Part shown: positions 43,997 through 53,737 of the stretch, in pieces
How the letters are laid out: each line of letters begins with the position of its first letter
Numbering within the stretch: position 1 is the stretch's first letter
Made by a program: the position numbers and the translations under genes
DNA from: Polaribacter sp.
GTDB taxonomy: Bacteria > Bacteroidota > Bacteroidia > Flavobacteriales > Flavobacteriaceae
Length of the DNA: 64,000 nt
Assembly (NCBI GenBank): GCA_028343155.1
Contig: JAOLXX010000001.1
Coordinates: 62,001 to 126,000, forward strand
Reading direction: 5' to 3'
Notes under the pieces: generated by a model
What the model saw: only the letters and a program-made list of their open reading frames with translations
Database searches by the model: none
What the model was told of the DNA's origin: nothing

Positions 43997-44222
43997 TTAA
44001 TAGTATTCGAAATCAGGTTCCTTCATCACAATTTTATAAGAACTATCAGGTTGCACAACGATTAGTGTAGTTAGTGCTTTTTTAATAGTTTACATAAAAT
44101 TAGCCTGAATAACAGTTTCTAATACGTTACTAAAACAATGTTTTGCAATTGTAAAATCAGGAGCTCCTGATGATCCAGTTTTTGCAACCGGTATTTTCAC
44201 TATTGGAAACCCGCTAAACAGG
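43997..44222 (-). pseudogene. Antisense coding remnant with internal stop
   Basis: On the minus strand one frame reads PIVKIPVAKTGSSGAPDF...TIAKHCFSNVLETVIQANFM, then a stop, then ALTTLIVVQPDSSYKIVMKE...EYY and a second stop. The residue composition is that of a real protein, but there is no start, the frame is interrupted and the fragment ends abruptly at about 44222 against the plus-strand HTH ORF. I do not recognise the family. It is probably debris at the left edge of the accessory region. Confidence 0.4.
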
Positions 44223-44405
44223 TTGACAATTTCTGACGAGGACACCGAATATTTAACCCGAAATGAAGTCTCTAAGGTTTTAAACGTAACAGTCCAAATA
44301 TTGAATAACAGGAGAAGAGAAGGTGTTTTAAATTTACTAAAAATAGGTGGCAGGGTGTTGTATCGAAAAGAGGATGTTTATAACAACTCACGACTGGTTG
44401 CGTGA
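44223..44405 (+). CDS. Excisionase/MerR-like helix-turn-helix fragment
   Basis: A 60-residue ORF starting at TTG with the wing-HTH pattern EYLTRNEVSKVLNVTVQILNNRRREG...KIGGRVLYRKEDV, as in the DNA-binding domain of excisionases and similar small regulators (HTH_17 type). It has no ATG, its open frame extends upstream into sequence that also reads as antisense coding debris, and it lacks the N-terminal part usually present. It is likely the C-terminal remainder of a regulator, perhaps from an integrated element. Confidence 0.5.
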   Translation: MTISDEDTEYLTRNEVSKVLNVTVQILNNRRREGVLNLLKIGGRVLYRKEDVYNNSRLVA

Positions 44406-44406
44406 G

Positions 44407-44436
44407 TTGTTAATTAAAGTTTTATAATTATATTTG
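44407..44436 (+). promoter_or_regulatory. Promoter TTG-N19-TATATTTG for the T9SS adhesin gene
   Basis: A near-ideal Bacteroidota promoter: TTG at 44407-44409 and TATATTTG at 44429-44436. Transcription would begin near 44443, which supports translation from ATG 44516 rather than the ATG at 44447. Confidence 0.65.
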
Positions 44437-44515
44437 TAACAAATAAATGAGCATATTTTATTTTTCAAACTCTTTAGTTTGTTTTTTTAAACCACTTTTT
44501 AAATCACTCATAAAT

Positions 44516-47500
44516 ATGTTTACCCAAAATTATAAAATTCTTTTTTTTTTACTAGCTTATACCGGGTTTGTAAATGCTCAACAGAGTATTGTTACAGAAA
44601 GTTTACAAGTGTATTTGGATGCAGGAAATGTTTCTTCATATTCCGGTACTGGTTCCACTTGGACAGATTTAACAGGAAACGGTCACAATGGAACACTAGT
44701 AAATAACCCTACCTATTCAAGTTTAAGAGCTGGATCTATCTATACAAATGGAACGAATAGTTATATTTATACAAATCAAATTCCGGGCACAGGAAATAGT
44801 TTACAGCCTTTAGTATTAGAAGTTTGGGTAAGTCCAAGTAATAGTAGTAATGGAAACATTGTTATGATGTCTAATACACAGCCTGAAGCTCATTGGAATA
44901 TGCCCCCAATTACTTCAGAAGGAGGTAGATTTAAGGCACTTATGTGGGGAGGGGAGAAATTATCCGACAATGCTGATTTTATTCCAGGGGAATGGTATCA
45001 TTTATTACTAGCCTGGAATCCCTCCACGCATACACAATCTTTTTATGTAAATGGTGTTTTAAAGGATTCACAAAGTTCTGTTAACTATTCTACAGACGGT
45101 GTTGACCACTACATGTATTTGGCTCAGGCAAATAGTGGCGCTAATAATCAAGGGTATTTTGAGGGGAAATACGGTAAGTTTAGAGTTTATACAAAAGCAC
45201 ATACTGCTTCAGAGGTTCTTCAGAATTATGAGGCTGAAGTTGCCTCTTTTTCTGGAAATATTACAATTGTAACTTCTGGCGGTGATTCTGAAAATGGTAC
45301 TTGGAAGTATGATAACAATGAAATTTTTACTACGTCTTCAAACGCAGAAATTAATGTTGCAGATATAGAAACACATCTTGCTGCAGGGCCGCTTACTATA
45401 ACTGCAAATGAAATTGTCTTTAATACTTCAGCAGCTATAGATGGTGTTGGAAATACGTTAAGTCTAAATTCAAAAACACACATATCAAATACACAGGCAA
45501 CAGTAATAAATACTAATGGGGGTAATCTTGTTTTTGCAGCAAACATTGATGATGCAACAGATTCAGAGAGTACTGTAAATGGCAATATTTCTTTTAGAAA
45601 TGGATTAACGGTATCTACGCAAGGTGGAGATATTACTTTTGGAGGAGGAAACACTCTAGGCACTGAGCATGCTATGGGAATTGCTACTGCCAATAGTTTA
45701 TATAATGAAGGAGTAAGAATAGATGTTACTTTAAACTTAAATTCATCAGGAGGGGATATAGTTATCAAAGGAAAATCTGCTAATACTAGTATTTCTTCTT
45801 CAGGGACTGGTGCATCTGGTGTTGGAGTATATGCTTTAAGTGCTCCTGCATTTATAGAAAGTGGTACAGGAACCATTTTCATAGAAGGTATTTGTCAAAA
45901 CATAGAAAAAACAGATTATACAGCTGGTGTGATTTTTGCATTAAACAACAACCACACAACTACTATAAAATCTTCAAATACCACTTCTAGTGCAATTCAG
46001 TTGAACGGGATTTCAATTCAAGATAAATATAATATTTATGGTATAGACGTTGCAGCTAACTCTCCTTTAACCCTTTTGGCAGATGCAGATGGAGGTGGAG
46101 TTTTATTAAAAACTGCTATTGGTTATGATTGGGCTGATTATACTACCTATCCAAGGTATGAAGCGATGTTTAGATCTGAGTTAAATGTCTTGGCAAAGAG
46201 TGGGCCTATATCTATATTGGGAGGTCAGTTTGAAGGTGAAAATAAAGGGCGTATTAAATTTGAAGTATCCCCTTACATTGGTTCTAAATCTGGTTCAGAG
46301 ATTACTACTAGTTCAAGTGATATTAATTTACAATATGATGAATTTAAATGGGGTAGTAATGATCCTCTTTTTGCAACTTCAGGTGTTGTTTCAATTAAAC
46401 CAACCACAGATTGGTCCCATTATCTTGGTTATGTCGCTACTTCTTGGTTTGGGTTTAATCAAAATAACCATATAATGTCTGGATTAGTTATAGGTAGTGC
46501 TGCAAATTTAAGTGATATTTATATTAATTCAACTCTACTGGGTAATGGTTCTATCTCTATATATGGTAGCGCAATTGATGTGACTTCAGACATAACAACT
46601 ACAAATGGAGATATTCTTTTAGATGCTGATAATGGTACTGCAATTTCTATGAATGATGACGGTGTATATGTTGGCCCGAATGTGACGCTAAAAACCCAGA
46701 CATCTGGGGATATCTATATTTATGGTCGAAGTGGAAATGCTAATTCGGGTGGTCAAGTAGGGATCTCAACCGCTGGAGCTGATGGGGCTATAAATATTAC
46801 TTCTGCTGGAAATATTACCATGCTAGGGATTTCTGAGTCGGCAAGTAGTAATGGAGCTAGGGGAACTTATTTTAATACAACCTCAATGTCAGCTGTTGGA
46901 GATGTCACAATTTTAGGGCAAGGTTTAAATGATGGTAATGATTATGATATTTCTTTTCAAAACTCCACTATAGATGCTGGTGGTAAGATAACCTTAGATG
47001 CCAAAAATGGAGGGCGAATTAATTTTTCAGCTACTAATACCCTAACTGCAGTTGGAGATCAAGAATATATTGCTGATAAGATTGGTATTAGTGCTGGATC
47101 AATAAACACGATCAATGGTTCAGGGGCTTTTTTATATATGCCAGATTCAGACAGTACTTCTTTTAGTGAAGATGTTAATTTAAGTTCAATTTCTTTTGGT
47201 AGTTCTCTTACAGGCTTTAGTATCGGTGATTCACAAAACACTACAAATGTCACAGTCGGAGCTCTTGATTTACAAGGGCCTATTTCTTTGTATGGGACGG
47301 ATATTGAGTTTAGTAGTACGGTAGTCAGTTCGGATTTAATCAATGCTAATGGAAATCTTAACATTACATCATCAGGATCACTAACATTAAATAGTAACGC
47401 TGCGATGACCGTAACCGGTAATCTTACCAACAATTCAGGAAGTCCTGTCACTATGAACAGTAGTTCTTCTATGATTGTTTCTGGGAGTTCTTCCGGCGAG

Positions 47501-48781
47501 ATTACATATAACAGAACCCTAGCTACAGATAATTGGTACCTCGTATCGAGTCCAGTAGCAGGCGAAACAATGGAAGACCTGATAACAAATAATACCTTTG
47601 CAACCGGATCAAGTTCTAATATTGGAGTGGCACCCTATGCAAATAACGGTACAGCTTGGAATTATCAAACCACAGCAGCTACAGGTAGCTTAGCCTCAGG
47701 AACCGGATACTCCGTAAAGTTAGCATCCCCAGGAGACATTGCCTTTACTGGCACCATACCAGTTACCGATGTCGGAATCGCAATTACGACAGATACCAAT
47801 GGATATAATCTGATCGGAAATCCGTACCCATCGTATCTCCCAGCAAATTTAAATGCAGATGGGACTCATAATATTCTAAAAGTAAACGATACAGACAATG
47901 ATTTCTTAACAGAAGCAACCCTTTGGCTTTGGAATGAGACGACCAGCACTTACGATGAAATCAATCATACATCGGATGCGCTTTTTCTTGCACCAGGACA
48001 AGGATTCTTCGTAAAATCGAACGGGTCCAATACCTTTAGCTTTACAGAAGCCATGCAATCTCACCAAACAACAGACCAATTTCAAAGACCCGTAGCACGT
48101 CCAGAAATTAATTTGATACTGACCCATGAAACCAATACGAGTGATACCGATATTTTCTACATCGATGGCACAACCGAAGGATGGGACAATGGTTATGACA
48201 GCACCCTCTTTGGAGGTACCGCCAATAACTTTGCCATCTATACCCATTTAGTTAGTGACAGCCAAGGACAGGATCTAGGGATTCAGTCGCTGCCAAATAC
48301 TAATTTTAAAAACAGGGTAATTCCCGTCGGAGTCAACGCTTCAGCAGGAACCACCATCACCATAGCAGCAGCAACCCAAAACTTACCCGAAGATGTAGAA
48401 GTATATCTAGAAGACAGAGAAGCAGGTTCCCTTACATTACTAGAAACAGACGAAAATTATACCATTACGCTTTCAGAAGCACTAAATGGCATTGGACGTT
48501 TTTACCTCTACACAAGTGCCCAAGTTCTCCTTATTGATGATGTAGCTATGGATGCAATTAGTATCTATACCTTCAATAATAATCACTTAAAAGTAGTAGG
48601 AGTTCATGATGGAGCCGCAAAAGTAACTGTTTACAACATACTAGGAAAACAAATTTATACTACCTCTTTTCAAGGAAACGGGGTCAATGAATTCTCTTTG
48701 GCAATGATTTCCTCTGGCGTGTATATTATCGAGTTAGATACAGCGATTGGTAGGTTGAATAAAAAAATAATTATCGAATAG
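44516..48781 (+). CDS. Large T9SS-secreted adhesin with LamG domain and type A sorting domain
   Basis: A surface or secreted protein of about 1,421 residues from ATG 44516, whose signal peptide is ILFFLLAYTGFVNAQ. An N-terminal LamG/concanavalin-like domain (about residues 20-235; VYLDAGNVSSYSGTGSTW, GNGHNGTL) is followed by a long Gly/Asn/Ser-rich stretch of GDI/GNIT-type beta repeats resembling filamentous-haemagglutinin helices (about 235-980). A conserved C-terminal module comes next (NWYLVSSPV, GYNLIGNPYPSY, APGQGFFVKSNG). The last 75 residues are the Por/T9SS type A sorting domain (KVTVYNILGKQIYTT, SGVYIIEL). The start at 44447 is possible but adds an unlikely N-terminus. Confidence 0.88.
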   Translation: MFTQNYKILFFLLAYTGFVNAQQSIVTESLQVYLDAGNVSSYSGTGSTWTDLTGNGHNGTLVNNPTYSSLRAGSIYTNGTNSYIYTNQIPGTGNSLQPLVLEVWVSPSNSSNGNIVMMSNTQPEAHWNMPPITSEGGRFKALMWGGEKLSDNADFIPGEWYHLLLAWNPSTHTQSFYVNGVLKDSQSSVNYSTDGVDHYMYLAQANSGANNQGYFEGKYGKFRVYTKAHTASEVLQNYEAEVASFSGNITIVTSGGDSENGTWKYDNNEIFTTSSNAEINVADIETHLAAGPLTITANEIVFNTSAAIDGVGNTLSLNSKTHISNTQATVINTNGGNLVFAANIDDATDSESTVNGNISFRNGLTVSTQGGDITFGGGNTLGTEHAMGIATANSLYNEGVRIDVTLNLNSSGGDIVIKGKSANTSISSSGTGASGVGVYALSAPAFIESGTGTIFIEGICQNIEKTDYTAGVIFALNNNHTTTIKSSNTTSSAIQLNGISIQDKYNIYGIDVAANSPLTLLADADGGGVLLKTAIGYDWADYTTYPRYEAMFRSELNVLAKSGPISILGGQFEGENKGRIKFEVSPYIGSKSGSEITTSSSDINLQYDEFKWGSNDPLFATSGVVSIKPTTDWSHYLGYVATSWFGFNQNNHIMSGLVIGSAANLSDIYINSTLLGNGSISIYGSAIDVTSDITTTNGDILLDADNGTAISMNDDGVYVGPNVTLKTQTSGDIYIYGRSGNANSGGQVGISTAGADGAINITSAGNITMLGISESASSNGARGTYFNTTSMSAVGDVTILGQGLNDGNDYDISFQNSTIDAGGKITLDAKNGGRINFSATNTLTAVGDQEYIADKIGISAGSINTINGSGAFLYMPDSDSTSFSEDVNLSSISFGSSLTGFSIGDSQNTTNVTVGALDLQGPISLYGTDIEFSSTVVSSDLINANGNLNITSSGSLTLNSNAAMTVTGNLTNNSGSPVTMNSSSSMIVSGSSSGEITYNRTLATDNWYLVSSPVAGETMEDLITNNTFATGSSSNIGVAPYANNGTAWNYQTTAATGSLASGTGYSVKLASPGDIAFTGTIPVTDVGIAITTDTNGYNLIGNPYPSYLPANLNADGTHNILKVNDTDNDFLTEATLWLWNETTSTYDEINHTSDALFLAPGQGFFVKSNGSNTFSFTEAMQSHQTTDQFQRPVARPEINLILTHETNTSDTDIFYIDGTTEGWDNGYDSTLFGGTANNFAIYTHLVSDSQGQDLGIQSLPNTNFKNRVIPVGVNASAGTTITIAAATQNLPEDVEVYLEDREAGSLTLLETDENYTITLSEALNGIGRFYLYTSAQVLLIDDVAMDAISIYTFNNNHLKVVGVHDGAAKVTVYNILGKQIYTTSFQGNGVNEFSLAMISSGVYIIELDTAIGRLNKKIIIE

Positions 48782-48799
48782 TAGAAAGCCCAAAAGAAT

Positions 48800-48971
48800 A
48801 TGAAAAACACTACTAAACATAGCGTACAAAATATTTCACGAAAAGAGGCCCCAAAAAAAGATGGGTTCATTTGGGAAATATGCAGCTCTTACAGCTATAG
48901 GTACCTATACCTTATTAAGCCCTCAAAAAGCACAGGCAGCAAGCCCGGAAGCTCCAGGAAGTGGGTTTTGA
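48800..48971 (+). pseudogene. Frameshifted small leader-like peptide gene
   Basis: ATG 48800 opens MKNTTKHSVQNISRKEAPKK. A change of frame inside the CCCCAAAAAAAG tract would continue MGSFGKYAALTAIGTYTL and end LSPQKAQAASPEAPGSGF. In the shifted frame the product is about 57 residues: charged N-terminus, hydrophobic core, AQA-type cleavage-like site and a short Gly/Pro tail. One more A (8 instead of 7) restores the frame. I associate RKEALKK...KYAALTA...KAQA small proteins with Flavobacteriia accessory loci (memory, not a search). The unshifted frame gives a 58-residue nonsense-like product. Confidence 0.55.
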
Positions 48972-49104
48972 ATTAAGAAGCACTTACAATTTAGACCAAA
49001 GATATTCTTCAGAGAAACCTCCTCAAAAGGAGTCCGATCTTAAAAGTATATGGGGTATTGGAAAAGTGAAATATGCTGAGGTTTTTGGCGTTTTTTATAA
49101 TTAA
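48952..49104 (+). pseudogene. Remnant resembling an HRDC-type domain
   Basis: An open stretch without a start reads LQEVGFELRSTYNLDQ, then KESDLKSIWGIGKVKYAEVFG. The last part resembles the HRDC domain of RecQ-like helicases (LKxIxGxGKxKxEKYG). It overlaps the end of the small peptide gene in another frame, so it is a fragment left by recombination rather than an intact gene. Confidence 0.35.
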
Positions 49105-49156
49105 AAAAAAATACCGGACATATACACTTATAAGTTAGTATTAGAAATTTTTGTAA

Positions 49157-49407
49157 GTACTAAAAATTGATATTCTAAAATTTATTGAACAGTATATTGC
49201 AAGTGTAAATGTTGATATTATATTAGACAGGTTCAGTATATCTTATCGAAAACTCAATAAAATATTAGGCAATAGTCCAGGAAAAGTGATAGCGTCAAAA
49301 AGAAAAGTTATAGCACAAAATTTAATAAAAAAAATAAATATTTAGAAGAAATAGCTTTATTTAGTGGGTATTCTATTTCTTATTTAAAAAAAACTATTAA
49401 AAATTAA
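49157..49407 (+). pseudogene. Decayed AraC-type HTH regulator fragment
   Basis: Frame 1 (to the stop at 49345) reads ILDRFSISYRKLNKILGNSP then KVIASKRKVIAQNLIKK. A shifted frame (49342-49407) continues LEEIALFSGYSISYLKKTIK. Together they are the two helix-turn-helix units of an AraC C-terminal domain, broken by a frameshift in an A-rich tract. There is no start codon and no effector domain. Between here and 49613 there is further low-complexity coding-like debris (FDLPQLLQGSFTDKNQF before a stop near 49600). Confidence 0.6.
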
Positions 49408-49613
49408 CTAGCTTTCCTTATATCTAACTAAAGATATTATTAAAATTAATACTTTAGATCTTATGTTAGAACAATCTTATGGTGCAACTAATATCAATCC
49501 TTTAAATTAGCGTTTAGTGTAATTAGTAAAGTCAAGCATCAAAAATTTGATCTCCCACAGTTACTTCAAGGTAGTTTCACAGATAAAAACCAGTTTTAAT
49601 GACTCAAATTCTT

Positions 49614-49621
49614 TAACTTTG
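49614..49621 (+). promoter_or_regulatory. Bacteroidota -7 box TAACTTTG
   Basis: An exact TAnnTTTG match 22 bases ahead of the PqqD/HprK-like gene. Confidence 0.5.
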
Positions 49622-49643
49622 TTAAAGATTTAATTAACCATAT

Positions 49644-50774
49644 ATGAGTAGTCCATTACTTACTAAAACTATCGAAGATAAAAGATATCTTTGGTTGGAG
49701 GGAACCAATCAATATGTGGTATTGGAACACGAAGCCTTTAGTGTTGTAGAGAAACTTATTAATGGGGTATTACCAAAGACGATTGCAACAGATCTTGAAA
49801 CAACATTATCGGTTCCATTTGAAGCGGCTCTAAAGTTTGTAAAAGAGTTAAAAGAACGGGTTTTAAATTCATCCATAACCGTTCAAGAGAAAAGTATCAT
49901 CGAATTATCAAAGGTTACAATTCCAAGTAACTTTGAGATTATAACTACCTATCGAGTAAACAGTACGCTTATAAAAGTTTCGTATAAAGGTGATTTAGAA
50001 GCTTCTTATATTCATCCTAAATTTGCACACTTAGAAACTGAAACAGCTAATAAAGAAACCGATTTTAAGATTTTTATAGCAAATGATAAAATCTATTTAG
50101 CAATTAACAATAAAGTAAAGTACGGATGGTCTAAGGAAGAAATTCATTATTTTCAAGGGAAGTTTTCTATGGAGTTTATACAAGCAATGTATCATAAAGA
50201 GGAATCTGAATGGATGGGTGTTTTTCACGCATCAGCAGTAAGCAACCAACAAAAGGCAGTACTTTTTTTAGGTGACTCGGGAAATGGTAAAAGTACTTCG
50301 TTGGCACTTCTTCAGAAACACGGATTTCAGTGTTTGGCTGATGATTTTGTGCCAGTTGCAGCTACAAATAAAGAAGTATATCACTTTCCTGCAGCCATTT
50401 CTGTTAAAAACAGTAGTTTACAAACATTAGCACCCTTGTATCCTTTATTAAATGATACAAAGGAATATCATTTAAAAAGATTGAATAAGAGAGTTCGTTA
50501 TTTACCGCCAAATTATACAGATACTCAAACCCACCTTGCTTGCAAGGATTTGGTATTTATAAAATACCAAAAAGACGTTGCATTATCATTTTCTAAAATA
50601 TCTAAACAAAAGGCTTTCGAGCAGTTGGTACCTGATTCTTGGTTATCTCCAAAAAAAGAGAACGCTGCTACTTTTTTAGAGTGGTTTGCTACATTAAACT
50701 GCTATCAAATCACCTATTCACAAACTAATGAAATGGTAGCATCAGTTTCTAAAATATTTAATGATGACGTATAA
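49644..50774 (+). CDS. PqqD-like (RRE) / HPr-kinase-like fusion protein
   Basis: A 376-residue soluble protein. Residues about 5-75 (YLWLEGTNQYVVLEHEAFSV, LPKTIATDLETTL, FVKELKERVL) look like a PqqD-type recognition element. The C-terminal half has a P-loop LGDSGNGKSTSLALL (about residue 211) followed by CLADDFVPV, the Walker A and DDF pattern of HPr Ser kinases and their relatives. Such kinase-like proteins occur in ribosomal-peptide clusters. It has its own promoter box. Neighbours are the T9SS adhesin and the small frameshifted peptide upstream; the substrate is unknown. Confidence 0.7.
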   Translation: MSSPLLTKTIEDKRYLWLEGTNQYVVLEHEAFSVVEKLINGVLPKTIATDLETTLSVPFEAALKFVKELKERVLNSSITVQEKSIIELSKVTIPSNFEIITTYRVNSTLIKVSYKGDLEASYIHPKFAHLETETANKETDFKIFIANDKIYLAINNKVKYGWSKEEIHYFQGKFSMEFIQAMYHKEESEWMGVFHASAVSNQQKAVLFLGDSGNGKSTSLALLQKHGFQCLADDFVPVAATNKEVYHFPAAISVKNSSLQTLAPLYPLLNDTKEYHLKRLNKRVRYLPPNYTDTQTHLACKDLVFIKYQKDVALSFSKISKQKAFEQLVPDSWLSPKKENAATFLEWFATLNCYQITYSQTNEMVASVSKIFNDDV

Positions 50775-50783
50775 AGAAACGTT

Positions 50784-50819
50784 TTACTTTGTGGCAAAAT
50801 GTTTTATTCTTTGTTTCAT
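50784..50819 (-). pseudogene. Truncated copy of the small zinc-ribbon gene start
   Basis: Minus-strand ATG AAA CAA AGA ATA AAA CAT encodes MKQRIKHFATK before a stop. The intact gene at 53510 begins MKQRIKHCAICK. This 36-base stub, next to a 112-bp repeat shared with the intact copy, is the decayed end of a duplicated segment. Confidence 0.6.
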
Positions 50820-50875
50820 AGGTTACTTAAGTCATTAATAACTTAATTTTTGGAGATTAATAAAACCAATTTCCA

Positions 50876-50987
50876 GTTATCTTTTTATATCTCCCGAGCA
50901 ACCTTTGGAGCAACTCTAAGAACCAAAAAACCCGTAAATCATTGTTTATAAATGAGTTACGGGATAATTTTGTGGTACCTCCAGGAA
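50876..50987. repeat. Left copy of 112-bp tRNA-Phe-adjacent direct repeat (att-like)
   Basis: Matches 53568-53679 without gaps and with about four mismatches; 50921-50987 is identical for 67 bp. It contains the tRNA-Phe terminator hairpin and the last 15 or so bases of tRNA-Phe (minus strand), i.e. a displaced tRNA 3' end as left by site-specific integration. Confidence 0.85.
50896..50915. promoter_or_regulatory. Paired GAGCAACC/GAGCAACT boxes (candidate integrase arm sites, left)
   Basis: Two near-identical 8-mers, 12 bp apart start to start, just outside the 67-bp identical core. Confidence 0.5.
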
Positions 50988-51111
50988 GTTTTAGGTTTTA
51001 CTTCATTTCATGTGTTTTCATATAAGTATATGAAAATCAATAGTATAATGACTAAATCATGATAAAAAAGTAAAGAGAAATCAAACCAAATAACAAGGAT
51101 TTAAACCTGCG

Positions 51112-51131
51112 GAGCAACCTCTCGAGCAACC
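51112..51131. promoter_or_regulatory. Paired GAGCAACC boxes upstream of the integrase gene
   Basis: Two exact GAGCAACC copies, again 12 bp apart, about 46 bases before the integrase start codon. They are candidate arm-type binding sites. The gap 50988-51177 holds nothing else recognisable. Confidence 0.5.
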
Positions 51132-51177
51132 GGTATTCTCGCCATATCTTAGCCTTAGTCATCAAAATTTAAGAAAT

Positions 51178-52059
51178 ATGTATAAGGTTCTAAAATCCTC
51201 AAAGGCAGCAATTCGATTTAGTCTAAAACATTCCAAGAAGCATTTGTCATCAAATTTGTATAAAGAAAGTTTAATTGTTTTATGGTTCTCCTTCGGAGGT
51301 GCAGACAAACGAGTAAGTTATTCAACTGGTTATACAGTTTCTTATGTAGACTGGGATTATCAAAAACAACGTGTTAAAACCAATAAATCAAGAGTTATTA
51401 ATTCTCATACCGTCAATAACTACTTAAATAGGTTGGAGACAGAATTAATGAATCAATACAGTCGATTTATAGATGAAGAAATACCAATCACAAAAGAATT
51501 AATAAAGGAAACTCTTGATATAATTTCAGGAAAAATAGTTCCAGTAGAAGAGCAAGAAACAGTTCCTGTTGATTTTTTTAAGTTCTCAGAAAATTATCTC
51601 CACCAAAAGAAAGATAGAATAGAGAAACCAACATTTACTTTGTACAAAGGAACCTTAACAAAATTGAAGAAATATGCACGAATAAGAAAAGTTACAGTTG
51701 ATTTTAGTTCGTTTAACAAAACCTTTTTAGATGATTTTAGACAGTTTTTAGAGAATCAAGAGAATCTTGCTTTAAATACAGTATCAAAACACTTTAAGAA
51801 TCTTAAAATGTTTGTGATTGAAGCCAAGAACCAAGGTCTTATATCCAATCCACCTTTAAAATATTTTAAAGTATCAACAGAGGAAACCACCAAAATTTAT
51901 TTAACAGATTCTGAAATTGAAAAAATGTTGAAACTGGATCTGTCTTATAACAAGAGATTGGATATAAGACCTTGGTTCTTGGTTTCATTTATTTCATCAA
52001 TAATTCTTACAACTTTCACTATCTCAGCATCATCACCAAAGACTTCATCAATTCCTTAA
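51178..52059 (+). pseudogene. Truncated tyrosine recombinase (integrase) lacking the catalytic domain
   Basis: The first about 265 residues follow Bacteroidota site-specific integrases: an arm-binding N-terminal domain (VLWFSFGGADKRVSYSTGY, VDWDYQKQRVK) and a SAM-like core-binding domain (about 120-230; FSENYLHQKKDRI, LDDFRQFLEN, NTVSKHFKNLKMFV). It continues to the linker KIYLTDSEIEKML and stops just before the first catalytic Arg box. The last about 24 residues are unrelated; the opposite strand there reads GIDEVFGDDAEIVKVVRII, a fragment of another gene. The R-H-R-Y residues are absent, so it cannot recombine DNA. Confidence 0.85.
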
Positions 52060-53342: not shown

Positions 53343-53510
53343 TTAAGCTTTCCAAGTTCCTCCATATTTGTAGTCAGAATTGTCTTTTTTAACATTTATA
53401 AGACACTCTTTACAGACAAACACCCATTCTTTTGGGTTTTTATATTGCACTCGGTACATCGTAGAGAAATCGACTTTACAAATGGCACAATGTTTAATTC
53501 GTTGTTTCAT
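53343..53510 (-). CDS. Small CxxC/CxxC zinc-ribbon-like protein (55 aa)
   Basis: An ORF too short for the track: MKQRIKHCAICKVDFST at the start, then NPKEWVFVCKECLI and GGTWKA at the end. Two CxxC pairs spaced about 24 residues apart are a typical zinc ribbon. The protein type (YRVQYKNPKEW...C..CL...YGGTWK) is familiar from Flavobacteriia. It lies about 155 bases downstream of tRNA-Phe on the same strand. A truncated duplicate of its first codons is at 50784-50819. Confidence 0.75.
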   Translation of the reverse strand: MKQRIKHCAICKVDFSTMYRVQYKNPKEWVFVCKECLINVKKDNSDYKYGGTWKA

Positions 53511-53567
53511 AATTCACTTAAGTCATTAGTAACTTAACTTTTGTAATACAAATATAACCCCTTTCCC

Positions 53568-53679
53568 GTTATCTTTTTATACCTTTCGAGCAACCTTTGG
53601 AGCAACTCTAAAAACCAAAAAACCCGTAAATCATTGTTTATAAATGAGTTACGGGATAATTTTGTGGTACCTCCAGGAA
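53568..53679. repeat. Right copy of 112-bp direct repeat, overlapping tRNA-Phe (att-like)
   Basis: Partner of 50876-50987; 53613-53679 is the 67-bp identical block and enters the tRNA-Phe gene by about 15 bases. GAGCAACC (53588) and GAGCAACT (53600) again lie 12 bp apart at its outer edge. Confidence 0.85.
53611..53655 (-). terminator. Terminator of tRNA-Phe
   Basis: On the minus strand CCCGTAACTCAT / ATGATTTACGGG forms the stem and is followed by TTTTTTGG. The same hairpin is duplicated at 50919-50963. Confidence 0.75.
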
Positions 53680-53737
53680 TCGAACCAGGGACACAAGGAT
53701 TTTCAGTCCTTTGCTCTACCAACTGAGCTAAGGTACC
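53665..53737 (-). tRNA. tRNA-Phe (GAA)
   Basis: A 73-base cloverleaf on the minus strand: acceptor GGTACCT/AGGTACC, D-arm GCTCAGTTGGTAGAGC, anticodon arm AAGGA-CTGAAAA-TCCTT with anticodon GAA, T-arm with GGTTCGATTCC. CCA is not encoded. Its 3' end is the integration site of the neighbouring island. Confidence 0.97.

Follow-up and report, generated by a model that had tools for sequence, protein, structure and literature searches.

Gene content of the locus

The window, a stretch of 64,000 nucleotides from a Polaribacter genome, carries on one strand a gene for a large T9SS adhesin, a gene for a short peptide and a gene for a kinase with an RRE-like N-terminus. This order, proposed in a first-pass annotation, is borne out by the coordinates, the domain matches and the fold of the kinase N-terminus. 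The features are as follows.

44407–44436, plus strand: flavobacterial-type promoter TTG-N19-TAnnTTTG upstream of the adhesin (exact consensus match)
44447–48781, plus strand: T9SS adhesin, 1444 aa (open reading frame; Por_Secre_tail/TIGR04183)
44747–45217, plus strand: Laminin_G_3 (concanavalin A-like) domain of the adhesin (PF13385, 1.9e-17)
48578–48775, plus strand: T9SS C-terminal sorting domain of the adhesin, peptide-linked subtype without YPNP (TIGR04183, residues 1378–1443)
48800–48865, plus strand: part coding for the N-terminal half of the peptide (MKNTTKHSVQNISRKEAPKKDG), in a different frame from the remainder (comparison with intact relatives)
48861–48971, plus strand: C-terminal part of the peptide, comprising the hydrophobic leader, the KAQA stretch and the core ASPEAPGSGF (relatives found in 32 of 59 genomes)
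48942–48944, plus strand: invariant Ser codon, proposed modification site (Ser in 135/135 aligned peptides and 24/24 across genera)
49644–50774, plus strand: RRE-HprK fusion kinase, 376 aa (HprK_rel_A match; AF2 model; Foldseek)
49644–49892, plus strand: RRE-like domain of the kinase, beta-beta-beta-alpha-alpha-alpha (DSSP order; match to 5v1v TbiB1)
50271–50297, plus strand: Walker A motif GDSGNGKST of the kinase (invariant in 29 kinases)
50761–50838, plus strand: nucleotidyltransferase gene remnant (homology ends at 50804)
50792–50987, no strand: direct repeat of about 200 bp, copy 1, at the junction that removes the nucleotidyltransferase
51178–52059, plus strand: remains of a tyrosine recombinase, part of a tRNA-Phe island (matches Phage_int_SAM_5 at 7e-15 but no catalytic domain)
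53483–53679, no strand: direct repeat, copy 2, overlapping tRNA-Phe
53664–53737, minus strand: tRNA-Phe

The Laminin_G_3 match was obtained by scanning the N-terminal part of the adhesin alone, and its T9SS tail scores 31.1 bits with TIGR04183 (1.8e-7), above the cut-off of 23. Exact matches to TTG-N19-TAnnTTTG number six in the window against 2.4 expected, so the adhesin promoter is supported mainly by its position. The kinase had been credited with a promoter of its own; this was not confirmed, since upstream of it there is a lone TAnnTTTG at 49614 with no TTG at the correct distance, and the full promoter precedes the adhesin.

The peptide gene (48800–48971, about 56 aa) starts 18 bp 3' of the adhesin stop and is frameshifted. 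Its start, MKNTTKHSVQNISRKEAPKK..., lies in a separate frame from 48800, and 48861–48971 translates as MGSFGKYAALTAIGTYTLLSPQKAQAASPEAPGSGF. Beside an A7 run the window has 13 nt where relatives have 12, which indicates either a true frameshift or an indel of the assembly. Two further peptide copies in this genome are intact. The kinase segment (49644–50804) is 98% identical to sister MAG L062; the identity begins at the kinase ATG and ends about 14 codons into the transferase, and compared with L062 the window lacks about 1.36 kb, in which the body of the transferase lies. Another sister, L033, retains an intact PF14907 nucleotidyltransferase gene, and none was found anywhere in this 81%-complete genome. 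With the peptide frameshifted and the transferase lost, the window copy is partly decayed, as the first-pass annotation had suspected.

The two direct repeats flank the integrase remnant at tRNA-Phe, which, with its ~200-bp repeats and integrase debris, is an integration hotspot. In sister MAGs L062 and L063 a kinase-transferase pair lies beside the same tRNA-Phe, and the kinase of the window looks like a tRNA-Phe-island copy set beside an adhesin-peptide pair. The region 44184–44406 contains an excisionase-like HTH reading frame, and in L003 a similar sequence is contiguous with the repeat at 50792–51140, which suggests a mobile element split around the adhesin-peptide pair. At the truncated end of the integrase reading frame, a 32-nt inverted repeat (51819–51850 and 51956–51987, 97% complementary) suggests a trace of inversion or duplication.

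The peptide family and its T9SS partners

Peptides of this family were found in 32 of 59 related genomes, in 1–17 copies each. We collected 147 of them, 143 distinct and typically 51–62 aa long, with a median gap of 23 bp from the upstream gene (n = 147). No Pfam or NCBIfam family matched the peptide. An apparent frame of 2260 codons around one peptide proved to be masked sequence and was discarded as a fusion.

The N-terminus of the peptides resembles a Tat signal with RK in place of RR. The motif xRKxA[LIMV], present in 144 of 147 peptides, departs from the Tat consensus S/T-R-R-x-F-L-K, and RR occurs within the first 35 residues of only 1 of 147. TatC is encoded by 295 of 301 Flavobacteriaceae genomes, this one included, and is so nearly universal that its co-occurrence is uninformative as a test of the Tat idea. 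The [Y/W]xxP motif, the RRE motif of lasso peptides and of linear polyphosphorylated peptides (LPPs), occurs in 0/139 peptides.

Towards the C-terminus, the AQA triplet is compatible with the -3/-1 rule for signal peptidase I. In Polaribacter and Tenacibaculum the Ser is conserved in every one of the 135 aligned peptides, and the L-x-P-x6-Ser spacing is constant in all 139 full-length ones. Across genera, nine positions never vary: R, K, A, K, A, T, L, P and, one residue beyond AQA, the Ser. This Ser adjoins the predicted signal-peptidase site, so its conservation could partly serve cleavage. Cys is absent from the aligned Polaribacter and Tenacibaculum peptides, 105/147 peptides end in GF and only 2/139 in Ser, and the core is almost the same among copies within one genome.

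Nearly every copy lies directly behind a gene with a T9SS domain, which agrees with the link to T9SS proteins drawn in the first-pass annotation. A distinct subtype of this domain was recognised in the upstream gene for 137 of 140 scored cases (five-fold cross-validation, threshold 55 bits). The threshold was also passed by 4 of 31 comparison domains; the comparison set comes mostly from one genome, and three of the four had been picked for late-starting matches. YPNP is found in none of the 140 peptide-linked domains and in 26 of the 31 comparison domains. Four genomes encode 27–79 T9SS domains each, so the peptide accompanies only a subset. The linked proteins are diverse (LamG, Lamin-tail/G8, fn3-like) and possibly include an alpha-amylase. 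They share with T9SS type A cargo the TIGR04183/PF18962 sorting domain, a signal peptide and the character of large repetitive surface proteins, but differ in lacking YPNP and in having a peptide gene directly behind. Three loci, L235, L236 and L237, encode the peptide-linked subtype with no recognisable peptide gene behind it.

An RRE-HprK fusion kinase and its partner transferase

Searching the kinase sequence against the PDB returned only weak HprK and ABC P-loop matches, and a fold search was required. The AF2 model (mean pLDDT 88.8) has three strands followed by three helices over residues ~1–83 by DSSP. Foldseek matched this N-terminus to 5v1v TbiB1, a lasso RRE solved with bound leader (probability 1.00, TM 0.68), and the remainder to HprK/P and PEPCK folds. 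The N-terminus thus has the PqqD/RRE fold by AF2 and Foldseek, with weak sequence matches (PF05402, 0.016). For the kinase domain, the best NCBIfam match is HprK-related kinase A (HprK_rel_A, TIGR04352; 6e-18), from which it differs in scoring 57–65 bits against a cut-off of 200; every HprK model that matches scores below its cut-off. His195, Lys216, Asp233 and Asp234 are conserved, and by our reading of the alignment they may be equivalent to the His-Lys-Asp-Asp reported as the catalytic set of lasso kinases (PMC9266682).

A scan of genome contigs gave 165 kinase loci, the best 80 of which are mostly from Polaribacter and Tenacibaculum. The kinase is usually single-copy in the 59 relatives (G023 has two). 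It is usually followed, as the fourth gene, by a PF14907 (NTP_transf_5) nucleotidyltransferase, adjacent in 82 of the 102 loci with enough downstream sequence and typically overlapping by about 10 bp (median -10 bp); in four relatives the transferase scores 105–129 bits, above the gathering cut-off of 31.2. In one genome the kinase and the transferase are fused into a single protein of 735 aa. An RRE, fused rather than discrete, an HprK kinase and an NTP transferase are thus encoded together. In other genera the operon order is adhesin, peptide, kinase and transferase, often followed by a protein of ~195 aa (e.g. L248:8123–8710 and L249:8240–8833), which has no Pfam match and is possibly an outer-membrane barrel.

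The first-pass annotation had described the trio correctly but incompletely: the PF14907 transferase, the T9SS-domain subtype and the invariant Ser had been missed.

Co-occurrence of kinase and peptide

The first-pass annotation had raised the question whether the trio recurs in other genomes, and the same arrangement was indeed found in many, far above chance. Upstream sequence was long enough at 101 kinase loci; at 67 of them the peptide lies within 1.5 kb, and at 65 of the 101 both peptide and T9SS gene lie within 2 kb. The other 34 have no close peptide; the kinase there follows various genes, often one that appears TrkH-like from its sequence.

Among 301 Flavobacteriaceae genomes the kinase was found in 29, the peptide in 33 and both in 28. 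The peptide is thus present in 28/29 genomes with the kinase and 5/272 without (Fisher p = 3e-33), and at genus level in 22/23 kinase genera (p = 9e-27); these p-values are inflated by phylogeny, and the pattern is patchy, some genera having members with neither gene. The sole genome that has the kinase alone is a fragmented MAG, in which this gene sits at the end of a contig. Among the peptide-only genomes, one has a marginal match and two (L272/G342 and L273/G354) have stop codons in their peptide copies, as expected if loss of the kinase lets the peptide decay. In the 59 relatives, with one fragmentary genome set aside, two have the kinase with no detected peptide and two the reverse. Outside the genus, neither gene was found among 375 genomes sampled across the class, few of them from this family.

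A proposed peptide modification system and its alternatives

These data probably reflect a RiPP-like peptide phosphorylation system, most plausibly one of phosphoglycosylation, that goes with one subclass of T9SS surface proteins. Behind each adhesin gene of the subtype would lie a gene for a precursor of ~55 aa, in which the segment [S/T]RKEA...KYAALTA.GT...L-x-P...KAQA would serve as recognition leader and Tat/Sec-like signal peptide, ending in an AxA signal-peptidase site, and in which a tail of ~10 residues would begin x-Ser-Pro. In the cytoplasm a single RRE-HprK fusion kinase per genome would bind all the leaders, of which a genome can have as many as 17, and phosphorylate the invariant Ser, and the PF14907 transferase would extend the phosphate by a sugar or nucleotide, as in pseudomycoidin. 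We infer these two enzymatic roles by analogy, since phosphorylated lasso peptides and LPPs are tailored by such a set of RRE, HprK kinase and nucleotidyltransferase. The leader would then take the modified peptide across the inner membrane and be removed after AQA, and at the cell surface the short product may work with the adhesin encoded beside it or act on that adhesin. Against this reading, the adjacency of kinase and peptide is partly lineage history and about a third of the kinase loci (34/101) have no peptide nearby; the leader, moreover, has RK rather than RR and no [Y/W]xxP.

The position of most peptide copies, beside T9SS genes and distant from the kinase, and their tie to one T9SS-domain subtype would also suit an unmodified peptide that helps T9SS secretion, acting in the periplasm to pilot or chaperone the special C-terminal domain, with the kinase directed at an adhesin domain, a regulator or another target. 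We consider this improbable: the kinase carries an RRE-like domain typical of leader binding, its presence tracks that of the peptide, the tail has an invariant Ser at fixed spacing, and members of the subtype without the peptide exist (L235–L237). Unlikely, too, is a secreted phosphopeptide natural product, a signal or a bacteriocin-like compound, that shares the modification chemistry and hitch-hikes on adhesin operons with no role in surface display. The enzyme set matches that of LPP and paeninodin-type RiPPs, but the link to the T9SS-domain subtype (137/140), the near identity of cores within a genome and the failure to recognise a dedicated exporter or immunity gene in the loci viewed speak against it.

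A metabolic or HPr-type kinase that is an accidental neighbour of the peptide is highly improbable. Its HprK/PEPCK fold, and the copy in sister genomes that adjoins the tRNA-Phe integration site with no peptide nearby, would fit such an enzyme, but the RRE-like N-terminus, the co-occurrence with the peptide and the HprK scores below cut-off do not, and an ordinary HPr kinase was dropped as a candidate. That decayed genes came to lie together by chance is hardly credible: the frameshifted peptide, the deleted transferase and the integrase debris of this genome would agree with it, but intact and conserved versions exist in many genomes, and kinase-peptide co-occurrence refutes it as a general account. 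A lasso peptide was likewise dropped.

Relation to known systems and significance

The closest precedent for the proposed modification system is the LPP family of Bacillota, described in 2026 (PMC13381572). Both combine an RRE, an HprK-like kinase and an NTP transferase with a short linear precursor, and the LPP kinase acts on a Ser near the core N-terminus (S3), as is proposed here, with signal-peptidase-type removal of the leader in both. LPP systems have a discrete RRE, a dedicated SpI peptidase, an MsbA-like exporter and the leader motif YxxPxVLxHQxIxFETxxS; their loci lie near capsule genes and are described as restricted to Bacillota (PMC13381572). In the Flavobacteriaceae system, by contrast, the RRE is fused to the kinase, the leader is Tat-like and lacks YxxP (YxxPxVL or [Y/W]xxP in none of 139 peptides), and the precursors are scattered, each behind a T9SS gene. 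Inspection of reading frames in operons of other genera recognised neither an archaeal-type SpI peptidase nor an MsbA-like exporter.

Phosphorylated lasso peptides share with it an HprK-family kinase with the His-Lys-Asp-Asp residues (PadeK of paeninodin, PsmK of pseudomycoidin) and, in pseudomycoidin, a nucleotidyltransferase, PsmN. PadeK and LppK kinases phosphorylate Ser, and PsmN adds hexoses to the phospho-Ser (PMC8498205, PMC9266682, PMC13381572). The modified Ser of these lasso peptides is C-terminal, whereas the invariant Ser of the present peptides is internal and close to the beginning of the tail. Neither an asparagine-synthetase-like lasso cyclase nor a B2 protease was recognised by eye in the loci viewed. 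A survey of Flavobacteriaceae biosynthetic gene clusters lists one RRE-containing cluster, in Aquimarina, with no mention of a kinase (PMC10734526), and open-licence papers on HprK_rel_A, PF14907 and RiPPs with T9SS yielded no description of the system. The system is real and apparently undescribed. It probably belongs with the phosphopeptide RiPPs, and no precedent for its T9SS link was found in open-licence papers.

For an RRE-kinase/PF14907 pair in Bacteroidota, the system provides a concrete, testable putative substrate, a tiny precursor with an invariant Ser. Phosphopeptide RiPPs would thereby extend past the Bacillota described for LPP, and their chemistry would be linked to type IX secretion, a connection of which we found no earlier report. 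The system also defines a subclass of T9SS cargo recognisable by its missing YPNP and its peptide partner. More tentatively, and with considerable doubt, the modified peptide could be an encoded phosphoglycosylated partner that anchors or matures this adhesin subclass, serving protein display rather than acting as a diffusible metabolite. The system may help to explain how surface proteins are decorated or anchored in abundant marine flavobacteria such as Polaribacter and Tenacibaculum.
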